Shown: positions 13,523 to 40,982 of the stretch, piece by piece
Position numbering within the stretch: the stretch's first letter is position 1
Layout of the letters: each line of letters starts with the position of its first letter
Notes under the pieces: model-generated
Seen by the model: only the letters and a program-made list of their open reading frames with translations
Database searches by the model: none
What the model was told of the DNA's origin: nothing
From: a virus
Direction: 5' to 3' (one strand)
DNA length: 40,982 nt
Virus record (IMG/VR): IMGVR_UViG_3300020731_000487
Location: 1 to 40,982 of that record
Program-made: the position numbers and the translations under genes

Positions 13523-14331
13523 CTTTGCCAATCCTTGTCGCCTGGATGTACTTGACTGTATCCACGTTTCCATTCTTTTCTATATTGATCAGCTGGGAGC
13601 AATCCAGAAAAATCTAATTTCTTAGCAACTCTATCTTTGAGTTGCGGGTAAAGTTTTTGTATATATGATTTATCTTTACTGCGCTGGCCTATCATATCAA
13701 TAAATCCACCTGGTCGATTATAACCTACATACCACTCAGTGGGTTCGGTTTTCTTTGGAGGATTACCACTGGTATATCCATTATTGTGTATTTTTAATTT
13801 TGACGGATCCGTATAATCGTTCTGCGGTTGGGGGCCAGTATCAGCAGGCGGTTTAGCTAGGGGATTTTGCCCTTCCTTGCGCCACGGAGAAATTTTAACA
13901 CCCATTGTTTTAGCGTGATCAAAAAAACCTCTGGGGATTTTTAAGTCAGGATCGTATTGTATTTCAACTATAAATGGAGCCTGAATAGGTATAGGTTTAT
14001 ATACCTGTTCTTCAGTTTCGTATTTGTAATGCATCATAGCACCTACCTTAGGTACTACTTTGTATCCAGCACGACGAAGAGCATCTTTATCTATAACAAA
14101 TTGAGCCACACCATTCCCGTAGGGAAAATGCAAGTATTGATTACGAGTTAGACTTATGCGTGGAATAGATTCTTCACCATTTTCTTGATCCATCTCTTGA
14201 TCAAAGTCAAAGGGCTTTTGCGGCTTTAAAGCACCACTTTTTAATATCTGCATCATAGTAGGGCCGTCTGGCACTCCGTGATACAAGAATTGATCGTTCA
14301 CACCCTCGTTTAATAGTTCCCAGATTTTCAT
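13519..14331 (-). CDS. ADP-ribosyltransferase-like protein with a possible capsid-targeting leader (270 aa)
   Basis: Residues 16-36 (LYHGVPDG...ILKSGALKP), the SLTRN at 60-64, and EEQVY near 107-111 follow the order seen in the ADP-ribosyltransferase/KptA fold (Y-H-G, S-x-T, E). This resemblance is from motif order only and is tentative. The first ten residues, MKIWELLNE|G, look like the short leader that T4 internal proteins and the Alt ADP-ribosyltransferase use for head packaging, cut after Glu by the head protease. Residues 165-200 are Pro/Asn-rich and probably a linker. A late-type AATAAATA lies just upstream (14340-14347), consistent with a virion-loaded protein. It could instead be an unrelated phage protein. 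Confidence 0.6.
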   Translation of the reverse strand: MKIWELLNEGVNDQFLYHGVPDGPTMMQILKSGALKPQKPFDFDQEMDQENGEESIPRISLTRNQYLHFPYGNGVAQFVIDKDALRRAGYKVVPKVGAMMHYKYETEEQVYKPIPIQAPFIVEIQYDPDLKIPRGFFDHAKTMGVKISPWRKEGQNPLAKPPADTGPQPQNDYTDPSKLKIHNNGYTSGNPPKKTEPTEWYVGYNRPGGFIDMIGQRSKDKSYIQKLYPQLKDRVAKKLDFSGLLPADQYRKEWKRGYSQVHPGDKDWQS

Positions 14332-14338
14332 AGCAATA

Positions 14339-14902
14339 TTATTTATTTGCTAGACCAACTCTAGAGCTGATCACATTCCAGTTGATAATCTTCCATTGAT
14401 TAGCAAGATAACCTTTCTTGTCAGCTTGGTAATCTAATGCCCAGGCATGTTCCCAAGCATCGATTAACAGCACAATATCCATTTTAATTTCGTGATTTTT
14501 GATAGTCTTAATTTTTCCATCTCGGGCTAGATAGCACCATCCGCTGCCTTGGATAGACATAAACTCTTTTTGAAAAGCATCGGTAAACGCATCAAAACTC
14601 TTGTAGTGTTTGTTAATAAATTCACCAGCAGTGCCGTCGGGCTCGTTTGATCTTGTGGGTTTTTGGAACTGTGTAAAGTAGATATCATGTAAGAAAGCAC
14701 CTGCTTCATTAAAGTCTGGATCGCCTTCACCGTCGTTAAACCGTGTAACATACCCCTTATATAGTTTACCATAGTGATAGTCTATAGTATCTTGGCTCAT
14801 ACTAGGCTCGAGATCATCCTTGGCATAGGGCAACTTAGTTTGAACTAGGGTTTTAGGACTCTTACCTTCGTTCAGTGTAATATGCTTAATAAAGTTGTAC
14901 AT
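14339..14902 (-). CDS. Fe/Mn superoxide dismutase with N-terminal extension (187 aa)
   Basis: The family N-terminal block (LPYAKDDLEPSMS) starts at residue 24. All four metal ligands are visible: His43 (DYHYGK), His72 (AFLHDIYF), and Asp148 and His152 (LIDAWEHAW). GSGWCYL (119-125) is the family's central motif. The enzyme dismutates superoxide to oxygen and peroxide. The usual second-sphere His pair after the first ligand (K-H-H) is K-L-Y here, and the usual active-site Gln is not evident, so activity may be altered. The extra N-terminus ends in L-N-E|G (residues 10-13), a candidate head-protease site, and cleavage would leave a normal-length enzyme. The late element GATAAATA sits five bases before the ATG with no ribosome site. 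Confidence 0.88.
   Translation of the reverse strand: MYNFIKHITLNEGKSPKTLVQTKLPYAKDDLEPSMSQDTIDYHYGKLYKGYVTRFNDGEGDPDFNEAGAFLHDIYFTQFQKPTRSNEPDGTAGEFINKHYKSFDAFTDAFQKEFMSIQGSGWCYLARDGKIKTIKNHEIKMDIVLLIDAWEHAWALDYQADKKGYLANQWKIINWNVISSRVGLANK
14340..14347 (-). promoter_or_regulatory. Possible late promoter AATAAATA for the ADP-ribosyltransferase-like gene
   Basis: The minus strand reads AATAAATA overlapping the stop of the superoxide dismutase gene. Eight bases separate it from the ATG at 14331, so the leader would be only about three bases long. Confidence 0.45.
14349..14364. repeat. 16-bp hairpin repeat, copy 2
   Basis: This is identical to 13507-13522, here in the last codons of the superoxide dismutase gene and in a different reading context. 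Confidence 0.6.
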
Positions 14903-14907
14903 AATGA

Positions 14908-14915
14908 TATTTATC
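14908..14915 (-). promoter_or_regulatory. Late promoter for superoxide dismutase
   Basis: GATAAATA on the minus strand is followed by TCATT and then the ATG at 14902. T4 spacing puts the first transcribed base on the start codon. Confidence 0.6.
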
Positions 14916-14943: not shown

Positions 14944-15150
14944 ATGATTAAATTTATTAAAAGTTTGTTTGCACCAGCAGTTAAAATTGAAACACCTGTA
15001 GTTGAAGCGCCTTATAAAGTTGAAACCTCAAATGCCAAGGCTGCATCTGAAGCGGTTGTTAAAAGCATTGCTGCCAAGAAAAAGCCAGCGGCTAAGAAAG
15101 CACCAGCGGCTAAAAAGCCACGTGCTCCACGTAAGCCTAAAGCAGAGTAA
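14944..15150 (+). CDS. Histone-H1-like Lys/Ala/Pro-rich small protein (68 aa)
   Basis: Residues 44-68 are almost entirely Lys, Ala, Pro and Arg, in repeats of the AAKKxPAAKK type seen in histone H1-like tails. Residues 1-12 (MIKFIKSLFAPA) are a short hydrophobic/basic helix. It has a clear AGGAG ribosome site and a late promoter. DNA or RNA binding is expected from composition alone. A head-internal or DNA-packing role fits late expression next to two candidate packaged proteins but is not shown. Its last 14 bases overlap the convergent UV-endonuclease gene. Confidence 0.75.
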   Translation: MIKFIKSLFAPAVKIETPVVEAPYKVETSNAKAASEAVVKSIAAKKKPAAKKAPAAKKPRAPRKPKAE

Positions 15151-19925: not shown

Positions 19926-19954
19926 ATTATAACACCATTTGAGCTAGCTGTCAA
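19926..19954 (-). promoter_or_regulatory. Perfect early sigma70 promoter
   Basis: TTGACA, 17 bases, TATAAT on the minus strand, with TG one base before the -10. The -35 overlaps the end of the upstream radical SAM gene. The predicted leader is about 25 bases with AGGAG. Confidence 0.88.
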
Positions 19955-21215
19955 CCTCACCCGAAATATCATTTATTCGCCAATTTCTCGATTTATCATC
20001 CATTTTTTCATGGGTGTATATGCGATCAACACGACTAAATGTTCCGCAGATATTGGCACAGTAGGCCATTTTTCCTTCGGCACAGCTGGGCTTAGTCCAG
20101 GAGTCAGTAAACACTCGATCCAAATGATGACCTTCCATTATTTCTTCTAGAGTATGTAAGTTTAAATCAAAATGATCCCAACCATACTTTTCTATCTCAT
20201 AGTGTAATTGTAGACTTTGACCATCTGAGTGTACACCATTTAAGTGTGTGCCCATATAGCAACATGGAATTACTCGACCTTTTTGATCGATAAACACTTC
20301 TTTACCACCATCCCGTGTTTCGGCTTTGCATTTGATCTGTGCAGTATCTAAAATTGAGTTGTCTTCGCGTGATAAAGTACTGTAGGCGTTGGCAATACGT
20401 TCCGGATAATTATTATGAGTTAGTTTATTTTCTTTTAATCGTTTATATTCGTCAACATTGAATTCCCAGAACTGAGCTTGTATTGGGCCAACAGGATTTT
20501 CTAAATTCCTGTTTTTAGGATCTTCCGGAGGATCAATCCAATAGTCAAATTTTCCTTCTCGGGTTATCGCTGACATCCGAACTAGTTGCACTCCATTATC
20601 TGTACCTAGAGCTTTCTTTGGAGTAAAAGAATAAAATCCAAGTTCTTTTGATAATGCTTTTGCTTCGTCAATCTGATGCTCATTATGTTTGAATATTAGA
20701 TAATCCCACTCTGCTCTGCCGCCTGCATTAATAAATGCTTTGACATTGGCCATTAACTTATCCCATTCTACGTTACGTCTGTACAAATGATTAGTATCTG
20801 CTAATCCGTCGATACTAAAGGTTATTTGCCACGACCAATGATCACGCAGTTTGCCTGCAAATAATTTGCCAATCTTCTCCCAAAACTCTGGTTTACGCAT
20901 ACCGCCATTGGTGTTCATACGTACTGTTGTTTCTGGACTTACTTCAGCTATATATTCACAAATTTCATATAAGTCTTTAGCCATGCCCGGGTCGCCGTGT
21001 ACCCCACAAAATAATATTACTTCACATTTTCTTATAATTGTAGGAGGAAAGAATTTTTTAAATTGATCAATAGTAATCTGATCTATTTCTAAGTCGGGCC
21101 GGATTAATGGACTATTAACATGGAAACGTGTACACATTGGACACGCGGCATTACACGCATTTGTGAGCTCAATGTGTAATTGATTTAGTTCAGAGAAATT
21201 AAAAAAATTATTCAT
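19944..21215 (-). CDS. Radical SAM protein with C-terminal Cys-rich domain (423 aa)
   Basis: The cluster motif CNAACPMC (Cys21, 25, 28) marks a radical SAM enzyme. In place of the usual GGE there is FCGVHGDP, the variant also found in the two plus-strand proteins at 39047 and 40140. The C-terminal third has KCKAE, IPCCYMG and a Cys-rich CAEGKMAYCANICG tail, consistent with a SPASM-type auxiliary Fe-S cluster. I chose ATG 21215, which overlaps the previous stop as ATGAATAA, over a TTG six bases earlier. It is the last gene of the early operon. The substrate is unknown. Confidence 0.9.
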   Translation of the reverse strand: MNNFFNFSELNQLHIELTNACNAACPMCTRFHVNSPLIRPDLEIDQITIDQFKKFFPPTIIRKCEVILFCGVHGDPGMAKDLYEICEYIAEVSPETTVRMNTNGGMRKPEFWEKIGKLFAGKLRDHWSWQITFSIDGLADTNHLYRRNVEWDKLMANVKAFINAGGRAEWDYLIFKHNEHQIDEAKALSKELGFYSFTPKKALGTDNGVQLVRMSAITREGKFDYWIDPPEDPKNRNLENPVGPIQAQFWEFNVDEYKRLKENKLTHNNYPERIANAYSTLSREDNSILDTAQIKCKAETRDGGKEVFIDQKGRVIPCCYMGTHLNGVHSDGQSLQLHYEIEKYGWDHFDLNLHTLEEIMEGHHLDRVFTDSWTKPSCAEGKMAYCANICGTFSRVDRIYTHEKMDDKSRNWRINDISGEVDS

Positions 21216-22425
21216 AACCAATCACCTTGGCGTATTCTGGATAGGTATCGGCAAAGTTTTGCTTTCGATACTGATCGTGTACCCGCGTTCTTTCTTTAAA
21301 TCTTTCCCAAGAAGCAGGATTGGGGACACCGTTTTTAATAAAATTAATAATTCCAGGTATATGTTGTTCATACATATATTGATCAACAGTATCTTTAGGT
21401 ATAGATTCTAATATGCCTACAACATACTCTTTGATATCAGCCGGAAGCTGACCTAGATTATACTGTATTGGGCCGTGTACTAAATTTAAGTAAGGTCCGA
21501 AGTCTTTAAAATTCTTTTGATGTTCTTCTAAAATTCTCGGAAGCCCTGTAATGTTTAATGTACTAAGAGTAATACACCACCCTAGATAGAGATTTTTAAA
21601 ACGTTCATTGAGTGCAATCGCTTTACGCATATTCTCTTGTACTTCATTCCACTTGGCTGGATATCGCATATATTCAAATTGTTCACCAATTCCGTCTACA
21701 CTAAAACTTAAATGCACGTGTCGGAAATGTTGGAAGATTTCAACCTTATCAGTGGGCCATTGTGTACCGTTAGTAGCATAATGTATTTCAATATCTTTAG
21801 CGTAACCTTGCTCTACTGCAACTTCTAAAATCTTCCACATCTTTTTGCTCATAAAAGGTTCGCCACCATAAAAATCAAACTGCTTAATGGTTGATAGATT
21901 AGCTTCTAAGTCATCCCAGAACGGACTTTCGTCATCGTAGTGCTGATGATACTTCTTCATGTTATCTGCAAACAATTTGTATGTAGGGTAGCGACTGCTT
22001 TCGTTAATATCAAAGTCTTCTTCCATCCAGGTGCTACTAGAATGACTACCACAAGTACGACATTTTAAGTTACAGGTATTACCAAGATTTAATTCAAATT
22101 TGGCTAGCCCGTTAAATGGTGCATTGCCTTTACTCAACCAATCTTTGTACTTGTCGTTATCACGCTGGCGTTTGCTTTTACGGCCAGCATCTTCTTCCTC
22201 AAAGCACCAATTGCATTTAGAATGCCTAATACCGGCACTGAGAGCCTGACGTACTTCTATAAATGCTTCTTGATTAAAGTTAACTGCGATAGTTTCACTA
22301 CCTAGAGAATGCTTAAGATCCTCGTCTCGGTACATACAACATATTTTTGTTGTACCAGTGTTATTACCACTCATGGCGTGTTCTGCGTTTACACACCACG
22401 AATGCTTGTTATTATCGTTTATCAT
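21208..22425 (-). CDS. Radical SAM protein with N-terminal twitch-type Cys domain (405 aa)
   Basis: The radical SAM motif is CNLKCRTC (Cys118, 122, 125), and the SAM-binding GGE appears as FYGGEPFM. Before the core, Cys11, Cys29/30, and Cys71 with Cys74 (CNWC) are spaced as in proteins carrying an auxiliary Fe-S cluster in an N-terminal twitch domain. Its architecture matches the proteins at 22412 and 24442, so these are three diverged paralogues side by side. It overlaps both neighbours by 8-14 bases, so translation is coupled. The reaction is unknown. Confidence 0.9.
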   Translation of the reverse strand: MINDNNKHSWCVNAEHAMSGNNTGTTKICCMYRDEDLKHSLGSETIAVNFNQEAFIEVRQALSAGIRHSKCNWCFEEEDAGRKSKRQRDNDKYKDWLSKGNAPFNGLAKFELNLGNTCNLKCRTCGSHSSSTWMEEDFDINESSRYPTYKLFADNMKKYHQHYDDESPFWDDLEANLSTIKQFDFYGGEPFMSKKMWKILEVAVEQGYAKDIEIHYATNGTQWPTDKVEIFQHFRHVHLSFSVDGIGEQFEYMRYPAKWNEVQENMRKAIALNERFKNLYLGWCITLSTLNITGLPRILEEHQKNFKDFGPYLNLVHGPIQYNLGQLPADIKEYVVGILESIPKDTVDQYMYEQHIPGIINFIKNGVPNPASWERFKERTRVHDQYRKQNFADTYPEYAKVIGYE

Positions 22426-23773
22426 AGTTATTATATATATCTTTACAAAAGTTGTAAAACTCTGTATATTCTGGAAACGTCTTTAACAAATCTGTACCCA
22501 AACGTTTGTCATTCTCTGTAAAGAAGCTATAAAAGTCTCTACGACCTGCACAAATCTTCTCCTCTGGTATAGTCTTAGCCTTCATGTAATCAGTTACACG
22601 CAGGAATTTTTCATACTCTAAGTCACTTAACCAATCGGGATTAGCTTTAATAAAATCTAATGTCTTATCCATATAGGGTAAGAAGTCATCTGTTAGGATA
22701 TTGATCATCCAGTGTGGAGGTTCTTTTAAGTAAGGAGTATCAAACTTAATAGCTTCCTTGCCAAACTCTTTACGCCACTCAATTACTTTCTCTAACAATA
22801 ATGTAAAGTTAGTAACACACAACACATTGAATGTACACATAAAGTTAACAGTGGTACCTGTTGCCAGTACAGCTCTCATGTTGCGTTCCCAATGCTCACA
22901 GTTTAATCCTGTACGCATATACTCTGCTTGTTCTCCCCAACTGTCGATACTGGTATAAAAACTAAAACTGCGAATCTTCTTTTGCGTTAGCAACGACTGT
23001 ACTCTCTCAATTAAACTATCTACTTTAGCAAAACTTACACCTAGATTACTGTTAAGACTAATCTCAAGCTGCGGTGCCGGCTCATTTTCTAGCAGGTCAA
23101 AGAACTGCATAGCACCCGGATTCATTAGCGGCTCACCGCCTGTGATACGTAGGGTATGCAGATCATTACGCAAACTTGGCCACCACTTCCAGAATGCATC
23201 GATATAGGGATTTTCATCTTTAGGGCCGTAATATGACCCGTTAGTCATAAACTCAATGCCATACTGATTGTAGGTCAAGTCATAGTTACCATGCTTTTTA
23301 ATTTCTTCAGTCCACATGGTGCTAGCCTGCGGACAGCAATAGCCGCAACGATAGTTACAGCCGTTACCAAAACTGACTTCTAAATAACGTGGATTGATAT
23401 CTCGATCCCATGGTAACTTGGCAACTTCATCAATCATTGGAACACTAAAATCACTTGCACTATGTATCATGCGATCGCTAATATGTTCACCGGGCAAGTC
23501 TTCGATATTCCAACAATAGTAACATTCTTGTGGACGTTCCCCTTCTAACATTTTTTTACGTTGCTCTTTTTTCCATTTAGTATTATGTAAAGCAGCCGGA
23601 TTAACTGCAATTTCATCTAGACCGATATGATGAGGACGTGGGTGATAACAACTATGGTTATCGCCGGTATGGAGATATAATGTTTGTGTCAACCATTTCA
23701 TTGTGCAAAAGCTAGGGCTTACATCGTTTAGTTTGTCTCTTATGAATTTAATTTCCTGTAGTCTATGATCCAT
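22412..23773 (-). CDS. Radical SAM protein with N-terminal twitch-type Cys domain (453 aa)
   Basis: The radical SAM motif is CNYRCGYC (Cys139, 143, 146), and the GGE motif is RITGGEPLMN. The N-terminal auxiliary-cluster cysteines are Cys23 (PSFC), Cys42 (HSCYHP), and Cys84 with Cys87 (ECYYC). The closest relative in the window is the 468-residue protein at 24442, which shares PSFC, SCYHP, ALHNTK and GERPxEC. It overlaps the SGNH-hydrolase gene by 11 bases and the next radical SAM gene by 14. Confidence 0.9.
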   Translation of the reverse strand: MDHRLQEIKFIRDKLNDVSPSFCTMKWLTQTLYLHTGDNHSCYHPRPHHIGLDEIAVNPAALHNTKWKKEQRKKMLEGERPQECYYCWNIEDLPGEHISDRMIHSASDFSVPMIDEVAKLPWDRDINPRYLEVSFGNGCNYRCGYCCPQASTMWTEEIKKHGNYDLTYNQYGIEFMTNGSYYGPKDENPYIDAFWKWWPSLRNDLHTLRITGGEPLMNPGAMQFFDLLENEPAPQLEISLNSNLGVSFAKVDSLIERVQSLLTQKKIRSFSFYTSIDSWGEQAEYMRTGLNCEHWERNMRAVLATGTTVNFMCTFNVLCVTNFTLLLEKVIEWRKEFGKEAIKFDTPYLKEPPHWMINILTDDFLPYMDKTLDFIKANPDWLSDLEYEKFLRVTDYMKAKTIPEEKICAGRRDFYSFFTENDKRLGTDLLKTFPEYTEFYNFCKDIYNNYDKR

Positions 23774-24449
23774 TGCTTATCCTGTTGTTTAAATTAATCT
23801 TACCTGCTATTTTATTTTCTGCAAAATCACATACTATGTTATAAAGTGCATCGTGTACTCTTTGATTACCAAGATGATTTGCTCTTTTATCTGCTGTAAA
23901 AAATTCTGATATTTTATCTTGATCGGTAATATGCGCTATTTCTTTTCTTGAAAAGTATATTAGAGGCGGCTTAACTTCGTTTTCGAACTCGTCAATGTAG
24001 TCATATAATGCATCATTGGATGTACTGTTTGTCCAGTTAGAGTTTGTACGATCTGTAAGGTACCCGGATGGAAATGCCCATATCACTAGCAATCTTAAAT
24101 TTTTTAATTTTGCTAGTCTCTTAACTTCTGTAGTATATAATTTTTGATATAAATTATCTAATGTTTCATTATAAAAGTTAGTCCAATACACATTGTATAA
24201 AAATTCTGTTCGAACTAATCCGGATTTTAAATAAAATCTAGTAGGGTCCGACCACGATAATATGACAATAGAGTTATCAGGCATTAGATCACAATACTTT
24301 AAAAATTTTAAAAATATCTCATGATTACTAGCACCGCCTTCTGCTTCATTAATAACAAAAAACTTTTCACGTAGTTTAATAGTCCATGCATTTTTATCAG
24401 GAACAAGTTCTGCGCAAAAGCTATCACCAAATATATAGATATTATCCAT
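23763..24449 (-). CDS. SGNH/GDSL-like hydrolase (228 aa)
   Basis: The nucleophile block GDSF puts Ser10 close to the start. EGGASNHE gives the second-block Gly and Asn, LSWSDPTRF resembles the third block, and D-x-x-x-NHLG near residue 190 gives the Asp/His block. Such enzymes remove acyl groups from lipids, sugars or peptidoglycan, or act as acyltransferases. There is no signal peptide, so it is cytoplasmic. It sits between two radical SAM genes with overlaps on both sides, suggesting it edits an acylated intermediate or product of the same pathway (inference). Confidence 0.75.
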   Translation of the reverse strand: MDNIYIFGDSFCAELVPDKNAWTIKLREKFFVINEAEGGASNHEIFLKFLKYCDLMPDNSIVILSWSDPTRFYLKSGLVRTEFLYNVYWTNFYNETLDNLYQKLYTTEVKRLAKLKNLRLLVIWAFPSGYLTDRTNSNWTNSTSNDALYDYIDEFENEVKPPLIYFSRKEIAHITDQDKISEFFTADKRANHLGNQRVHDALYNIVCDFAENKIAGKINLNNRISNGS

Positions 24450-25848
24450 GCAGATCCTTACACCTGTTCCAAAAATCAGTTAGTTCTGGGAATGTCTTTA
24501 ATATGTCTGTATTATTTCTACGATCTTGTTCTGTAAAATACAAATAAAAATTCATCATTGCAGTATCCTGATCATATTTAGTAGGTGTTTTAATCCAGTC
24601 AATTAGTCTTTGAACTTTGCTAATTTCAAAATCTTTAAATCCTTTGAATCGAGAAAGCTGATCTTCTTTATTAGCTTTCATATACTCTACACTCTTTTCT
24701 AGTTCTGTAACCATTTCTGGTAGTATCTTTGCACTCATCCATTCTGGGCTTGTAAGCATTGGTACATCAAACCAGATAAGCTGCCTATCTTTACAGTAGT
24801 CTTTACGTAACTGATGTATGTTTTTAACATAGTTTAACCAATTGGGATAACTTAGTACATTAAATGTAGCTATGAATGTTAGACTATGTTTGCTGCCATT
24901 GGCTAGAAAATCTGTAATATTCCTATAGAGGGTATTAAACTCCATACCGTGGCGAATATACTCGGCTTGCGATCCCCACGAATCTAAACTACAGAATAAC
25001 ATAAAATGATCTATAGCATCCGCATCTGTTAGATCCTTTAGTCCGTCCATAAACCGATTCCATTGATCCCCCGGCGGGCAGCAATTACTTGTAATACTTA
25101 AATTAAGATCGGGTTTGGGATTTTCTCTAATGTAATCAAACATACGAAACGTATTTTTATCCATTAGCGGTTCGCCACCAGTCATGCGGAATGTTTCAAG
25201 TGTTGGGTAGATCTGAGGTAGCCATTTCCAAAAAGCCAGCAAGTATGGATTGTCTAGACTGTTATTAGGCATGTTCTGTTGCATCCACGACATGTCATTA
25301 TGCCAGGTACCTATTAGTTTATATGCACCATGTTTTTCAATATCCTTCATCCATGTGGTTGAAAGATGCGGACTGCAATAACTACACTTAAAATTGCACG
25401 CCTGATTAAAGTTTACTTCTACATAGCGTGGATTAGGATTTTCAATAGTCTTAGCTTCTTCTAATAATTCAGGACTAAAGACATCTTTACTACGATAAGC
25501 ACGATCGCTAAGATTATTACTGCTATCCTCTATTTGCCAACAAAAACTACATTCTTCAGGTCGTTCGCCAGCTAGCATCAGCTTGCGTTGTTCTTTTTTA
25601 TATTTGGTATTGTGTAGTGCCGAAACATCAACAACAACTTCTTCAACTGGTATACGGTGACTTGGTGGATGATAACAGGAATGTGTTTTACCTGTTGGAA
25701 TATGCAGACTTACATTATACCATTTGGCTAGACAAAAGCTAGGACTTACCTCATTTAATTTTTGATAAACGGTTTCGGAGTCGTACTGGTATTGGGATTC
25801 AAATTTCCCATTAATTTTCTTTACCTCATCGCCCTTGATATTATCCAT
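24442..25848 (-). CDS. Radical SAM protein with N-terminal twitch-type Cys domain (468 aa)
   Basis: The radical SAM motif is CNFKCSYC (Cys151, 155, 158), with MTGGEPLMD as GGE. The N-terminal auxiliary cysteines are Cys39 (PSFC), Cys58 (HSCYHP), Cys100 and Cys103 (ECSFC). It is a clear paralogue of the 453-residue protein at 22412. It is the first radical SAM gene of the operon, 7 bases after the 74-residue gene. No precursor peptide with a Cys- or Gly-rich core is seen beside it, so a peptide-modifying role is unsupported. Confidence 0.9.
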   Translation of the reverse strand: MDNIKGDEVKKINGKFESQYQYDSETVYQKLNEVSPSFCLAKWYNVSLHIPTGKTHSCYHPPSHRIPVEEVVVDVSALHNTKYKKEQRKLMLAGERPEECSFCWQIEDSSNNLSDRAYRSKDVFSPELLEEAKTIENPNPRYVEVNFNQACNFKCSYCSPHLSTTWMKDIEKHGAYKLIGTWHNDMSWMQQNMPNNSLDNPYLLAFWKWLPQIYPTLETFRMTGGEPLMDKNTFRMFDYIRENPKPDLNLSITSNCCPPGDQWNRFMDGLKDLTDADAIDHFMLFCSLDSWGSQAEYIRHGMEFNTLYRNITDFLANGSKHSLTFIATFNVLSYPNWLNYVKNIHQLRKDYCKDRQLIWFDVPMLTSPEWMSAKILPEMVTELEKSVEYMKANKEDQLSRFKGFKDFEISKVQRLIDWIKTPTKYDQDTAMMNFYLYFTEQDRRNNTDILKTFPELTDFWNRCKDLHG

Positions 25849-34152: not shown

Positions 34153-35007
34153 TTAAATCTCCACTGTTATATTTGGGTTCCAGCCTGTACTTTCTACAAA
34201 ACTGTAAGTTTCGTAACCGCGCGGGTTACATACTATTCGAGTAGTACCAATAAAGTAATCAAATGTCTCGTGTGTATGTCCATGAGTCCATAGTTTAATT
34301 TTTGGTCTATCTAAAATAAATTGATCAAGATTACTGTGATATCCACCATTCATTAGAGTATCGGCAGCGTACTTTGGATGTGCGCTTTGGAAACTAGGTG
34401 TATGATGTGTAACCACTACTACCTTAGCATCTTCGGGCAAGTTTTCAATCACGTGACTTATATATGATTTAGTCTTATGAAATTCAGCCATAGCACGAAC
34501 TGGCAGGAATTTTCTAAAGTTTTCTTTAGCAATACGTATAACACTAAAATCATTCATGCAGTGTTCTAGATGATACATGGTAAATTTATCACCACCATTC
34601 ATATCGGTCCATAACGTGCCACCGACAAAATAAACATCATCAATCTGCTTAGTATCATTGTCTAATAAGTAGATATTATGCAACTGTAAGTCGTCGAGCA
34701 TTTTACGGAATATATCTGCACTTTGATCAAACTTGCCATTGTAGTGTTCGTGATTTCCCATTACATAGACCACATGTGGGAATCTAGTACTACAGCGTTG
34801 GAAGAAGTCAGCAAACCGCAGACCGCGTTCAGCTCGCTTGCTCAGAGGCTCCTCTGCATCATTCCATGCAACAGAAACAGGTGATACCTTGAGATCGTGA
34901 AGAACGCAGATATCCCCCGATAGTATCAGTACATCATAATCATTATCATTGAATATATCAATGTCGGACATCTCTATATGGAGATCCGATACAACTTTAA
35001 TTTTCAT
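34153..35007 (-). CDS. Calcineurin-like metallophosphoesterase (284 aa)
   Basis: All five metal-site blocks are present in order: Asp8-x-His10 (SDLH), GD at 31-32 (SGDI), GNHE at 84-87, His201 (VTHHTP) and GHTH at 243-246. Family members cleave phosphate esters in nucleic acids, cyclic or dinucleotides, or proteins. The substrate is unknown here. It overlaps the upstream gene by 11 bases in the early operon from 35546. Confidence 0.92.
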   Translation of the reverse strand: MKIKVVSDLHIEMSDIDIFNDNDYDVLILSGDICVLHDLKVSPVSVAWNDAEEPLSKRAERGLRFADFFQRCSTRFPHVVYVMGNHEHYNGKFDQSADIFRKMLDDLQLHNIYLLDNDTKQIDDVYFVGGTLWTDMNGGDKFTMYHLEHCMNDFSVIRIAKENFRKFLPVRAMAEFHKTKSYISHVIENLPEDAKVVVVTHHTPSFQSAHPKYAADTLMNGGYHSNLDQFILDRPKIKLWTHGHTHETFDYFIGTTRIVCNPRGYETYSFVESTGWNPNITVEI

Positions 35008-35512
35008 TTAGTTCACCTTTAATTGCCTGCTTCAGTATATCTTCTACAAGTGCATTTAGAGTAATATCGCGGTCGTGAGCCAACCGCATCATTTCAAACA
35101 GTTGATCATTGTCTAACACCAAGGGCACTTGTACACGAGTATCATAGGCCTTGCCTGATACAATAGCTTTGGCTTTTTCTAACCAATCATCGTCGAGCTC
35201 TAAGTCTGTATATTCGACATCGTCCCACGCTTGTTTATAATCAACTTCTCTAAGTTTAGCTTCTTTCTTGTGCTTTTTAACCCAATCGGAATTCATTAAG
35301 CGATAAGCACGCTGATTAGCATAGTCATAAGCGGTAGCTTCGTAGACTTCTTGAGTCTTCGTGTCAAACAAAATACTAACACTGTGGCCATCGTGATCGC
35401 CATTCCACGCATCTAAACGATAGGCATTTTTACCATAACAATCCCACATGTAATCACTACCTTCAGTGATGCGATAGTCAGCAACTTCCATCCATTGTTT
35501 AAGTGTAATCAT
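34997..35512 (-). CDS. Phage protein with C-terminal helix-rich domain (171 aa)
   Basis: The N-terminus (MITLKQWMEVADYRITEGSDY) is of a type repeated at the start of several T4-like phage proteins. The centre is rich in Asp, Tyr and Trp. Residues 125-171 (VPLVLDNDQLFEMMRLAHDRDITLNALVEDILKQA; shown in parts at 129-145 and 150-163) resemble a ribbon-helix-helix DNA-binding fold of the CopG type. This is tentative. It is the first gene of an early operon with AAAGG before the ATG. Confidence 0.7.
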   Translation of the reverse strand: MITLKQWMEVADYRITEGSDYMWDCYGKNAYRLDAWNGDHDGHSVSILFDTKTQEVYEATAYDYANQRAYRLMNSDWVKKHKKEAKLREVDYKQAWDDVEYTDLELDDDWLEKAKAIVSGKAYDTRVQVPLVLDNDQLFEMMRLAHDRDITLNALVEDILKQAIKGELNEN

Positions 35513-37461: not shown

Positions 37462-37490
37462 ATTATACTATCAAATGTAAATACTGTCAA
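37462..37490 (-). promoter_or_regulatory. Perfect early sigma70 promoter of the tRNA-like gene
   Basis: TTGACA, 17 bases, TATAAT on the minus strand. Exactly six bases separate the -10 from the first base (G) of the acceptor stem, so transcription should begin at the mature 5' end. Confidence 0.85.
37476..37483 (+). promoter_or_regulatory. Late-type promoter TGTAAATA of the second radical SAM block
   Basis: TGTAAATACTGTCA runs straight into the ATG at 37490, with no ribosome site. It overlaps the -35/spacer of the divergent tRNA promoter, so the two may exclude each other. Confidence 0.45.
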
Positions 37491-38473
37491 TGAACTTCTC
37501 AACCATACCCTTTGATAAAATAACTCGTTTTGGACAGCAGACAATGCTGGATCGTCCATTATTTAACACAAGTTGGATATTGGGCAGATTTTGTAATTAC
37601 AGTTGTTCGTACTGCTGGCCATATGCACGTACCGACTATAATGATCATAAGCCATTAGAGCTTTACCAAAAAACGGTTGATGAAATTAAACGGCAAGCTC
37701 GCCAAAATGGATTTAGCCAATTCCATTGGAGTTTTTCAGGTGGCGAACCTACAGCCTACAAAGATCTAATTAATCTAATTACCTATTTGGATGATGGAGT
37801 CCAATCTCCATATCAAAGCATACACATGACTACTAATTTGAGTCCAGGTCCAAAATGGTGGAAAAATTGGTCCACAGCAACCGAAGTACTTCAGCGCAGA
37901 AGTATTACAGCTAGCTATCATGAAGAATTTGCTAAAGAACAAGAATTTGGTGATAAGTGTTTGCAATTAATAAACGATGGCATATATGTTACTATTAATC
38001 AAGTCATGGTTCCGGAAAAGTTCTGGGGACTATATGATCGATTAGAACAGTTCCATGGTCGTGGAATTAATGTAACTTTAAAGCCTCAAAGCGATCCTAC
38101 TGCTAGTCGCATAGTTGATGGCTATACTGATGACATGATAAAAGCAATGCAAACTGGATTTAAACAACGGGCACAGGGCGAAGATGTATATCAAATAAAG
38201 CTCTCTGATGCAGATGGTAATGAATATCTATTTGATCAAGCAGAACGATTTAATTCATTTGGTTTTAACAAGTTCACCGATTGGCATTGCCATGCTGGGT
38301 GGCAAAGTGTTATAATACGAGGTAACGAAGTCAAGAGGGCATATAGCTGTCACGATGATATACTAGGAACACTCGAGGATGGATTTACTCTTTTTGATCT
38401 CCCAACCAAATGTAAAACACCTACCTGTGTCAGCTCAGCAGATTCAAAGATACCAAAATGCAAGTTGATCTAG
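37490..38473 (+). CDS. Radical SAM protein (327 aa)
   Basis: The cluster motif is CNYSCSYC (Cys35, 39, 42) followed by WPYARTDY, with FSGGEPTAY as GGE. A Cys-rich tail (CHAGW, YSCHDD, KCKTPTCVSS, KCKL) may hold an auxiliary cluster. It is the first gene of the plus-strand block. No ribosome site is seen before the ATG, and Met19 is an alternative start. Its end overlaps the next gene by 16 bases. Confidence 0.88.
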   Translation: MNFSTIPFDKITRFGQQTMLDRPLFNTSWILGRFCNYSCSYCWPYARTDYNDHKPLELYQKTVDEIKRQARQNGFSQFHWSFSGGEPTAYKDLINLITYLDDGVQSPYQSIHMTTNLSPGPKWWKNWSTATEVLQRRSITASYHEEFAKEQEFGDKCLQLINDGIYVTINQVMVPEKFWGLYDRLEQFHGRGINVTLKPQSDPTASRIVDGYTDDMIKAMQTGFKQRAQGEDVYQIKLSDADGNEYLFDQAERFNSFGFNKFTDWHCHAGWQSVIIRGNEVKRAYSCHDDILGTLEDGFTLFDLPTKCKTPTCVSSADSKIPKCKLI

Positions 38474-39054
38474 AACACTTACATTTTTGGATGCAGGCCA
38501 TCCGTCAAAGCCCGGATCCTATACGGACTATGGATGCTTTCTGGCAGGGTCAGATTAAGAGTAAAGAATGGCTAATTGATAGTATCAAACCTTTTATCAC
38601 TAGTGCTGTGAGTGTAGACATACACGGCGGGTGGGTTGGTGTATTAGCTAGCTTATTATTTCAAAGCGATATTGCAATAAAATATTTACGTAGTATAGAT
38701 ATAGATCCTAGTTGTCAACCGATAGCTACCATGATGAATAAAATAGAAGAACAGGATGGTTACTTTAAAGCTATCACTGACGACATGTGCAATGTAGAAT
38801 CTACAAGCGATGTTATAATTAATACCAGTTGTGAACATATTACACAGGATCAATACGATCAATGGCTAGCTAACTTACCAACTTCTAGTTTAATTGTATT
38901 ACAAAGTAACAACTATGACATACCAGAACATATTCGATGGTCCAAGGATCTCAAAGAATTTGAATCAATTAGTAATATCGATATACTATGGAGTGGAGAG
39001 TTGCCTACTCAAATGTATACACGCTATATGATTATAGGGCATAAGAATGTTTAG
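38458..39054 (+). CDS. SAM-dependent methyltransferase-like protein (198 aa)
   Basis: VDIHGGWVGVLASLL (53-67) fits the Gly-rich SAM-binding loop, RSIDIDPSC (79-86 region) gives the acidic residues after strand two, and VIINTSCEHI (119-128) sits where the catalytic strand is expected. A typical DxGxGxG is not present, so the call is moderate. It overlaps the radical SAM genes on both sides (16 and 8 bases), so it probably acts on the same substrate. Confidence 0.65.
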   Translation: MQVDLEHLHFWMQAIRQSPDPIRTMDAFWQGQIKSKEWLIDSIKPFITSAVSVDIHGGWVGVLASLLFQSDIAIKYLRSIDIDPSCQPIATMMNKIEEQDGYFKAITDDMCNVESTSDVIINTSCEHITQDQYDQWLANLPTSSLIVLQSNNYDIPEHIRWSKDLKEFESISNIDILWSGELPTQMYTRYMIIGHKNV

Positions 39055-40147
39055 ATTTAATGAATTAGAAAGCATCCATATAGAAATAACTAATCGATGT
39101 CAAGCCAGTTGCCCTATGTGTCCACGCAACATACACGGCGGTATAGAAAATCCTCAGTTAACTATTAATGATTGGTCGTACGAAGACTTTGTTCGTATTA
39201 TAAGTCCAGAAGTTTTACATCAATTAAAAGAACTTAATTTTTGTGGCAGTTTTGGTGATCCTATACTTAATAATGATCTAATAAAAATGTGTCAGTATAT
39301 TAAAAATACTGCACCTAATCTAAGAGTAGAAATTCATACAAATGGTAGTGCTAGGCCTAAAGCATGGTGGCAGCAATTAGCAGAAGCCATGCCCGGCAAT
39401 CATACGATAGAGTTTGCCCTAGATGGCCTAGCAGATACTCACGCATTATATCGTGTAGGGACAGATTGGCAGAAAGTCATTGATAATGCGCAGACATACA
39501 TGTCTGCTGGTGGACATGCTGCTTGGATGTTTATTAGATTTAAACACAATGAACATCAGGTAGCACAAGCAGAAAAGATGGCAAAGGATTTAGGATTTTC
39601 AAAATTTAAACTTAAAGACACCCGTCGATTCGAAACAGAAAAATTTGCGGTGGTTGATCGAGATGGGACTATAACGCACTATCTAGAAAAACCTACAGCT
39701 AGCATTATTAATTTTGTTAATAGCCGAGATTTAGAAACATACCCAAGTTGGCCTAATAAAACAGATATAGACTGTTTTGCCTTAAGGCATCGAGAAGTTT
39801 ATATTGATGCTTGCTATACAGTCATGCCGTGTTGCATACTAGCAGCATTTATCTATACTAACTATGATAAATCTATATTAGAAAAATATAATTTATATCA
39901 CGAGTATTCTAATATCGGCATTGGTGGTAAGATTCAAAAACAAGTATTTGAATTTATTGACGAGCTCGGTGGCACAGAAAATATAAATGCACTCAACAGA
40001 TCTATTAAAGATATTATAGACGATAACACGTGGCAGACATTATGGCAATCCAAATGGAATTCTGCTGAGTCTATCGGTTGTATAGTGCTTTGTAGCAATG
40101 ATAGTCCCTATGTTAAAATCGATAAACAGTGGGTTGAAAATGTATAA
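39047..40147 (+). CDS. Radical SAM protein (366 aa)
   Basis: The motif is CQASCPMC (Cys18, 22, 25). FCGSFGDPILN replaces the usual GGE, as in the proteins at 19944 and 40140. FALDGLADTHALYRVGTDW is a shared core block. The C-terminal cysteines (IDCFAL, ACYTVMPCC, GCIVLC) suggest an auxiliary Fe-S cluster. The gene is coupled to both neighbours by 8-base overlaps. Confidence 0.9.
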   Translation: MFRFNELESIHIEITNRCQASCPMCPRNIHGGIENPQLTINDWSYEDFVRIISPEVLHQLKELNFCGSFGDPILNNDLIKMCQYIKNTAPNLRVEIHTNGSARPKAWWQQLAEAMPGNHTIEFALDGLADTHALYRVGTDWQKVIDNAQTYMSAGGHAAWMFIRFKHNEHQVAQAEKMAKDLGFSKFKLKDTRRFETEKFAVVDRDGTITHYLEKPTASIINFVNSRDLETYPSWPNKTDIDCFALRHREVYIDACYTVMPCCILAAFIYTNYDKSILEKYNLYHEYSNIGIGGKIQKQVFEFIDELGGTENINALNRSIKDIIDDNTWQTLWQSKWNSAESIGCIVLCSNDSPYVKIDKQWVENV

Positions 40148-40982
40148 ATTTAAAGAAATCGGCGCCCTTCATGTAGAGCTTAGTTCTAACTGTCAGGCTA
40201 GTTGTCCGATGTGCGCTCGCAATCATCACGGTGGTCAAGAAAATCCATTACTCAAGGTTCGAGATATTGATCTTAGATTATTTGTTAAAATGGTGCCTAG
40301 TCGATTAGTAGAGCAGCTACATACTATTACTATGTGTGGCAACTTCGGTGATCCATTGCTTAACAATGATCTAATCAATATTGTCAACTATATTGTTATG
40401 AATAATCCTACCATTAGGATTGATATCCATACCAATGGTAGCTTACGCTCGACTAAGTGGTGGGCAGAATTAGCCGCAGCGTTACCTGACAATCATCTTG
40501 TACAATTTGGTATTGATGGATTGGAAGATACTCACGCATTGTATCGTGTAGGTACAGACTTTAATAAAATTATTGACAATGCTAAAACATTTATCAATGC
40601 TGGCGGCAAAGCCCGCTGGAACTTTATTACATTTAGACACAATGAACATCAACTAGAATCTGCACGTCAAATGGCTAAGGATTTAGGATTTGATAGCTTC
40701 TATGAAAAGCAAACTAGTCGCTTTATAGGCAACCCTTGGTTTGATGCTTACGATAAAAATGGGAATGTAACCCATCGGTTAGAAAATCCTACAGAACAAA
40801 AATTAGTGTTTGTAGATAAAAAGACTGTAGAAAACTATAGAGAATTAGTTGCTAGTGCTACAATTAAATGTGAAGTTGAGGAAACTAAAAGCATTTATAT
40901 TGACGCTCTAGGATACTTATGGCCCTGTTGTTTTGTAGGAGCAACTCCCTACATACATACTACAGACCAACAACTAGTGCAT
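40140..40982 (+). CDS. Radical SAM protein, partial at window end
   Basis: ATG 40140 overlaps the previous stop by 8 bases (ATGTATAA). The visible 281 residues begin MYKFKEIGALHVELSSNCQA, with the motif CQASCPMC (Cys18, 22, 25), then MCGNFGDPLLNND, GIDGLEDTHALYRVGTDF and WPCCFVGATP. It is a tandem paralogue of the protein at 39047. The open frame continues past the edge. Confidence 0.9.
   Translation, partial: MYKFKEIGALHVELSSNCQASCPMCARNHHGGQENPLLKVRDIDLRLFVKMVPSRLVEQLHTITMCGNFGDPLLNNDLINIVNYIVMNNPTIRIDIHTNGSLRSTKWWAELAAALPDNHLVQFGIDGLEDTHALYRVGTDFNKIIDNAKTFINAGGKARWNFITFRHNEHQLESARQMAKDLGFDSFYEKQTSRFIGNPWFDAYDKNGNVTHRLENPTEQKLVFVDKKTVENYRELVASATIKCEVEETKSIYIDALGYLWPCCFVGATPYIHTTDQQLVH

Follow-up and report, generated by a model that had tools for sequence, protein, structure and literature searches.

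The window, that is, the whole 40,982-base stretch analysed, held two adjacent genes on its minus strand, one for a superoxide dismutase (SOD) and, after a gap of 7 nt, one for an ADP-ribosyltransferase-like (ART-like) protein (Table 1). Both open reading frames and their starts lay where the sequence-only reading had placed them. With a slash marking the predicted cut, the SOD began MYNFIKHITLNE/GKSPKTLVQTKLPYAKD and the ART-like protein MKIWELLNE/GVNDQFLYHG (leader segments with the residue beyond the cut: MYNFIKHITLNEG and MKIWELLNEG).

Table 1. Positions of observed and predicted features at the SOD locus of the window.
Feature	Position	Strand	Basis or remark
SOD (Fe/Mn-type), 187 aa	14339..14902	-	Pfam Sod_Fe_N and Sod_Fe_C above cut-off; metal ligands present
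SOD, predicted capsid-targeting leader MYNFIKHITLNE	14867..14902	-	phi-x-E conservation in phage SODs
SOD, predicted cut after Glu12	codon 14867-14869	-	
SOD, predicted mature form, 175 aa from Gly13	within 14339..14902	-	
Late-type promoter of SOD, GATAAATA	14908..14915	-	5 nt ahead of SOD start codon
Weak late-type promoter, AATAAATA	14340..14347	-	Within the 3' part of the SOD gene; spacing to the ART-like ATG 8 nt
ART-like cargo candidate, 270 aa	13519..14331	-	AF2 model fold matches; residues invariant in 10 homologues
ART-like protein, predicted capsid-targeting leader MKIWELLNE, cut after Glu9	14305..14331	-	Leaders of homologues

By its domains and ligands the first product is a Fe/Mn superoxide dismutase. 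Pfam matched Sod_Fe_C (E = 2e-22) and Sod_Fe_N (E = 1.7e-11), with the match beginning at residue 23, and the His-His-Asp-His metal ligands were H43, H72, D148 and H152. The N-terminus was about 17 residues longer than in Fe-SODs of the PDB (query residue 22 corresponding to chain residue 5). Cleavage had been claimed to leave the enzyme near its usual family start; after the predicted cut at Glu12, 9-10 residues would precede LPYAKD, compared with about 4-5 in PDB Fe-SODs.

Late-type promoters preceded both genes, as had also been claimed, the one of the ART-like gene being the weaker. Relatives of the ART-like gene in L085 and L086 had stronger versions (GATAAATA or TATAAATA) 5 nt from the ATG. 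Of 77 distinct SOD genes, 51 had a TAAATA whose end was spaced exactly 5 nt from the start codon. The T4 late promoter covers -13 to -6 (PMC1524935), and the SOD mRNA would therefore be expected to start at or next to the A of the ATG; such a transcript would be late and nearly leaderless.

The motif phi-x-E stood ahead of the SOD core in 76 of 77 distinct phage SODs, and [LI]xE[GAS] occurred in the leader of 63 of the 77, against a background of 2.2% of equal-width internal windows and 3.2% of shuffled leaders. An [LI]xE[GAS] leader was present in 0 of 13 distinct cellular SODs, these being the ones that met the same automatic start criterion, with the remaining cellular N-termini judged by eye. 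Cellular relatives started a few residues ahead of LPY or had signal-peptide-like N-termini. One 'Methylophilaceae' match (L208) was excluded from the cellular controls as a phage-like SOD fragment (48% over the C-terminal part); it may be what is left of a phage, or the contig may be mis-binned. The leader was kept in 80 of 80 nearest IMG/VR relatives of the window SOD, a set for which one search pattern overlapped the leader itself. A second search used patterns confined to the C-terminal half and reached more divergent SODs; the leader was thus not selected for in the divergent half, because this half was collected with C-terminal patterns only.

The SOD leaders differed in sequence and length, with the cut at residue 7-17 and mostly 12, and divergent examples were MAYNFIQKFIVE/G, MDLRQTINLIE/A, MREIITLIE/S, MRAVEFLTE/S and MYDIVERIAE/A. 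At the predicted sites, P3 was L or I in 74 of 76 and P1' was G, A or S in 65 of 76. Variable sequence and length combined with a fixed protease-type site is the pattern that a removed propeptide should show, and by these comparisons the leader is a conserved, phage-only feature of these SODs. The N-terminal leader was absent from the SOD of Vibrio phage 2.275.O (L101:5968-6537), whose C-terminal tail ...KMLDE/SVNIRHLINFISK carried a phi-x-E site followed by S, recalling the C-terminal processing of T4 Alt.

No head genes were present in the 40,982-base window, and the capsid site was compared in close relatives; of 15 contigs searched for gp21 and gp23, the longest alone had them, most contigs being fragments. 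A 223-kb relative (G001) encoded a SOD 83% identical to the window SOD, in a gene order common to both: long tail-like protein, HesB, 95-aa protein, SOD, divergent small protein, UV-endonuclease-like gene and QueD. The ART gene was absent from this relative. Its head genes included gp20, gp22, gp21 (PF03420, 6e-27) and gp23 (PF07068, 1e-79), and because of the synteny the window is probably a fragment of a T4-type myovirus. The divergent small protein of the window (14944-15150, plus strand, 68 aa; relative at 214101-214364 in G001) had a Lys/Ala/Pro-rich, histone-H1-like tail. At least seven radical-SAM-like genes were seen by eye in the window at 19944-25848 and 37490-40982 (CxxxCxxC-type motifs).

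In T4, gp21 cleaves propeptides off gp23, gp24, Alt and the internal proteins (PMC5694885; PMC9026906), with Alt cut at ITE-6 (PMC5694885). In the gp23 alignment, YLAE41/S of G001 lay opposite FLTE65/A of T4, and the YLAE/S site was also found in G018 and G019. The window sites, TLNE/G in the SOD and LLNE/G in the ART-like protein, fitted this motif; the comparison with the capsid cleavage site that the sequence-only reading had proposed, made here on close relatives, showed one consensus. Genome-wide enrichment of the motif at N-termini was weak: 12/199 for the broad form (p = 0.009) and 5/199 for the strict form (p = 0.06) in G001, with p = 0.03 and p = 0.11, respectively, in G018.

Leaders of this type also headed unrelated proteins. 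The most direct link between a cargo leader and a capsid site is a 61-aa protein of G018 (C1:172655-172840; L295), which began MKIREIVE/SATAGATSAGNVA and over 14 residues repeated the cleavage region of gp23 from its own genome. Homologues of the ART-like protein at 64-44% identity began MRAEEFILE/A, MRALEFIVE/A and MRAKEFIVE/Y. Of 9 related contigs, 7 contained matches to a DNA pattern for MRAxEF, 18 in all, and the reversed-pattern control gave 0. In the phages with these ART genes the MRAxEFIxE leader headed the ART, basic small proteins, a GNAT-kinase-like protein and others with no evident common sequence. The EFIxE core of these leaders was also the core of the proven T4 IPII and IPIII leader, MKTYQEFIAE/A in the T4 record (IPI: MKTFKEFTSTTTPVSTITE/A). 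A Dps/ferritin-like protein recognised by eye (MEHDKYHLSLKTAFASEFSFYLKAHNFHWNVEGPLFGQLH; G001:C1:174681-175121) lay near leader-bearing genes and was itself without a leader. In the window, 34997-35512 (minus strand) encoded a possible third leader protein, MITLKQWMEVADYRITE/GSDYMW, of a length like that of T4 IPI; its two relatives were both identical.

The gene after the SOD varied among phages: no leader-bearing gene, an ART, a 244-aa protein beginning MRIWEIIKE/A, a protein beginning MKTIRDYVRLIE/N together with an ART, or an 846-aa polyprotein beginning MRATEFITE/S. The MKIWELLNE and MRIWEIIKE leaders occupied one slot, 3' of the SOD, and the SOD-ART order was retained down to 44% ART identity, followed by further leader-bearing genes. 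By gene order, the SOD would be the constant element of a cargo locus, and the gene downstream of it an exchangeable cassette. The 846-aa protein (L136:3525-6065, plus strand, directly 3' of a phage SOD) comprised GNAT, ParB_N, ART-like (YLWHGSRY) and second GNAT-like segments, set apart by four KQGVAEG or KQGVVES linkers that form repeated phi-x-E sites followed by G or S; it looks like a cargo polyprotein that would be cut within the head.

A SOD about 40% identical to that of the window, gp223 of Pseudomonas phage PA5oct, carried the leader MNDSIKKYISIAE/A and an ESI-MS/MS note on its CDS. Exactly 93 CDS of the PA5oct record were so noted; the published abstract reportedly gives 93 virion-associated proteins, and the noted CDS are presumably these. 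The N-terminal motif was found in 9 of the 93 noted CDS, compared with 6 of the 294 remaining ORFs (p = 0.0026, or 0.0066 when the SOD is left out). The noted set also held ribonucleotide reductase, thymidylate synthase and FtsH, and the tag is support for packaging rather than proof because cytosolic enzymes were tagged too. In keeping with this, the PA5oct cytidyltransferase had neither leader nor ESI-MS/MS note, whereas proteins of its Pfam family in G001 and G018 began MNLRELFE/S and MLLNELFE/A. Taken with conservation, the gp23 site and the leaders on unrelated proteins, the tag on the homologue gives good support to the claim of the sequence-only reading that the leader is a T4-type capsid-targeting and processing sequence.

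The SOD and its neighbour are thus probably internal head cargo of a T4-type phage, one of a family of bacterial viruses from fresh water, cut by a gp21-type protease and entering the cell with the DNA. As to its parts, packaging and cleavage of both proteins are likely from their sequences, and injection is plausible, because of the analogy with the T4 internal proteins and Alt. It is unlikely that the SOD simply works inside the infected cell as an ordinary auxiliary metabolic gene, with a lineage-specific N-terminal extension left uncut by the head protease. Lists of auxiliary metabolic genes of Microcystis viruses do include Fe/Mn-SOD (PMC12542629), and the PA5oct list includes cytosolic phage enzymes; however, the extension was free to vary except in the protease motif, was common to unrelated proteins and was absent from cellular SODs. 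That a leader-targeted SOD acts as a basic or structural internal protein and not as an enzyme is improbable: position 30 of the E. coli SOD (His) was Leu in the window SOD (by eye) and Sod_Fe_N was aligned over model positions 6-40 of 82 only, but the four metal-ligand columns, Tyr34 and the outer-sphere His were invariant in an alignment extending to PA5oct and a Vibrio phage, at identities down to about 32-40%. A start-codon artefact, with the true start at Met35 or elsewhere, is scarcely credible. In its favour, the ATG has no Shine-Dalgarno sequence ahead of it and lies right beside the late promoter; against it, the 5-nt promoter-ATG spacing and the leader codons were conserved across distinct genes, and with Met35 as the start part of the SOD core would be lost.

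Under the cargo reading, the SOD and ART-like precursors would be synthesised late, and the leader would direct each of them into the prohead scaffold core. A gp21-type prohead protease would then cut after the Glu of phi-x-E, ahead of G, A or S as in gp23, at Glu12 in the SOD and Glu9 in the ART-like protein. The mature enzymes would be freed inside the head, stay with the DNA and be delivered along with it into the cell on infection.

The ART-like protein had no match in Pfam and PHROG searches, and its alignment had none against the PDB and Pfam. An AF2 model from 10 sequences was of moderate quality (pLDDT 66); a first model, from eight mostly near-identical sequences, was dropped as poor (pLDDT 57). 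The best nine PDB fold matches all belonged to the ART superfamily (probability 1.00; marginal E of 0.0046-0.02; query TM-score 0.23-0.33). The model matched KptA/Tpt1 (tRNA 2'-phosphotransferases) and DarT, then Scabin and NarE. On this modelled fold the label ART-like is fair. Residues H18, S60, R63, E105, E107 and E108 were invariant in 10 homologues, within the conserved motifs YHG, ISLTR and ETEE, and are compatible with an active site of the H-x-E type. The T4 Alt clade is defined by an Arg-Ser-Glu active site (PMC5512222); none was apparent by eye in the ART-like protein, which also had no sequence match to Alt. The proposal that the enzyme modifies host proteins was not supported, since the fold matches were mainly to the nucleic-acid-acting KptA, DarT and Scabin; with KptA/Tpt1, DarT and Scabin as best matches, a nucleic-acid target is as likely as a protein target.

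For the SOD, quenching of a host oxidative burst is an unsupported guess. Shielding of packaged DNA and proteins (sunlit water) or of the enzymes of early infection would fit as well. A broader scheme is offered tentatively, being possible rather than probable: freshwater T4-type phages may have a modular delivery repertoire, with a near-universal virion SOD and exchangeable leader-tagged effectors whose injection would serve to neutralise superoxide and to reprogram the host within minutes of the start of infection. Within that same tentative scheme, the effectors would be ART, GNAT-kinase-like proteins and multi-domain polyproteins cut at internal phi-x-E sites followed by G.

In the literature searched, no report of a virion-packed SOD in phages and no relevant paper joining capsid targeting with a phage SOD were found. 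If the cargo reading is true, no earlier SOD would, within that literature, have been shown to be packed in a bacteriophage head, and the gene family in question counts hundreds of members among viral metagenomes. Phage SODs, so far read as genes of host metabolism, would become possible entry effectors or enzymes that protect the virion, and a leader rule (phi-x-E followed by G, A or S and matched to the gp23 site) would make injected T4-type cargo predictable from sequence alone.

Among known systems, T4 IPI, IPII and IPIII share with the window proteins a short leader at the N-terminus (in T4, 10-19 aa) whose last residues are phi-x-E, followed by A, G or S (PMC9026906), a late-type promoter and a phage with gp21, gp22 and gp23 (here from relatives); they differ in being small basic proteins, whereas the cargo here includes an enzyme of a cellular family. 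T4 Alt, which T4 packages and injects, is likewise of ART type and has a leader that is cut at phi-x-E, but belongs to the Arg-Ser-Glu clade, unlike the window protein with its YHG...ISLTR...ETEE and KptA/DarT/Scabin-like folds. PA5oct gp223 is a Fe/Mn SOD with a leader and an MS note, but is annotated as a hypothetical protein with no stated role or cleavage. The Cu/Zn SOD of the chlorovirus PBCV-1 (a245r) is expressed late, is packaged and goes along with lower superoxide (PMC7019647), and SODs are present in giant-virus virions (PMC9405923). These resemble the window SOD as late-expressed viral SODs inside the particle (packaging being predicted here) and differ in their eukaryotic hosts and, for PBCV-1, in the Cu/Zn type. 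To our knowledge, the SODs of PBCV-1 and giant viruses have no T4-type leader. Polyvalent phage proteins carry ART and other enzyme domains, for which injection together with the phage DNA is predicted (PMC5512222); they are multi-domain and the window proteins are not, although a multi-domain example lies beside the SOD in L136.
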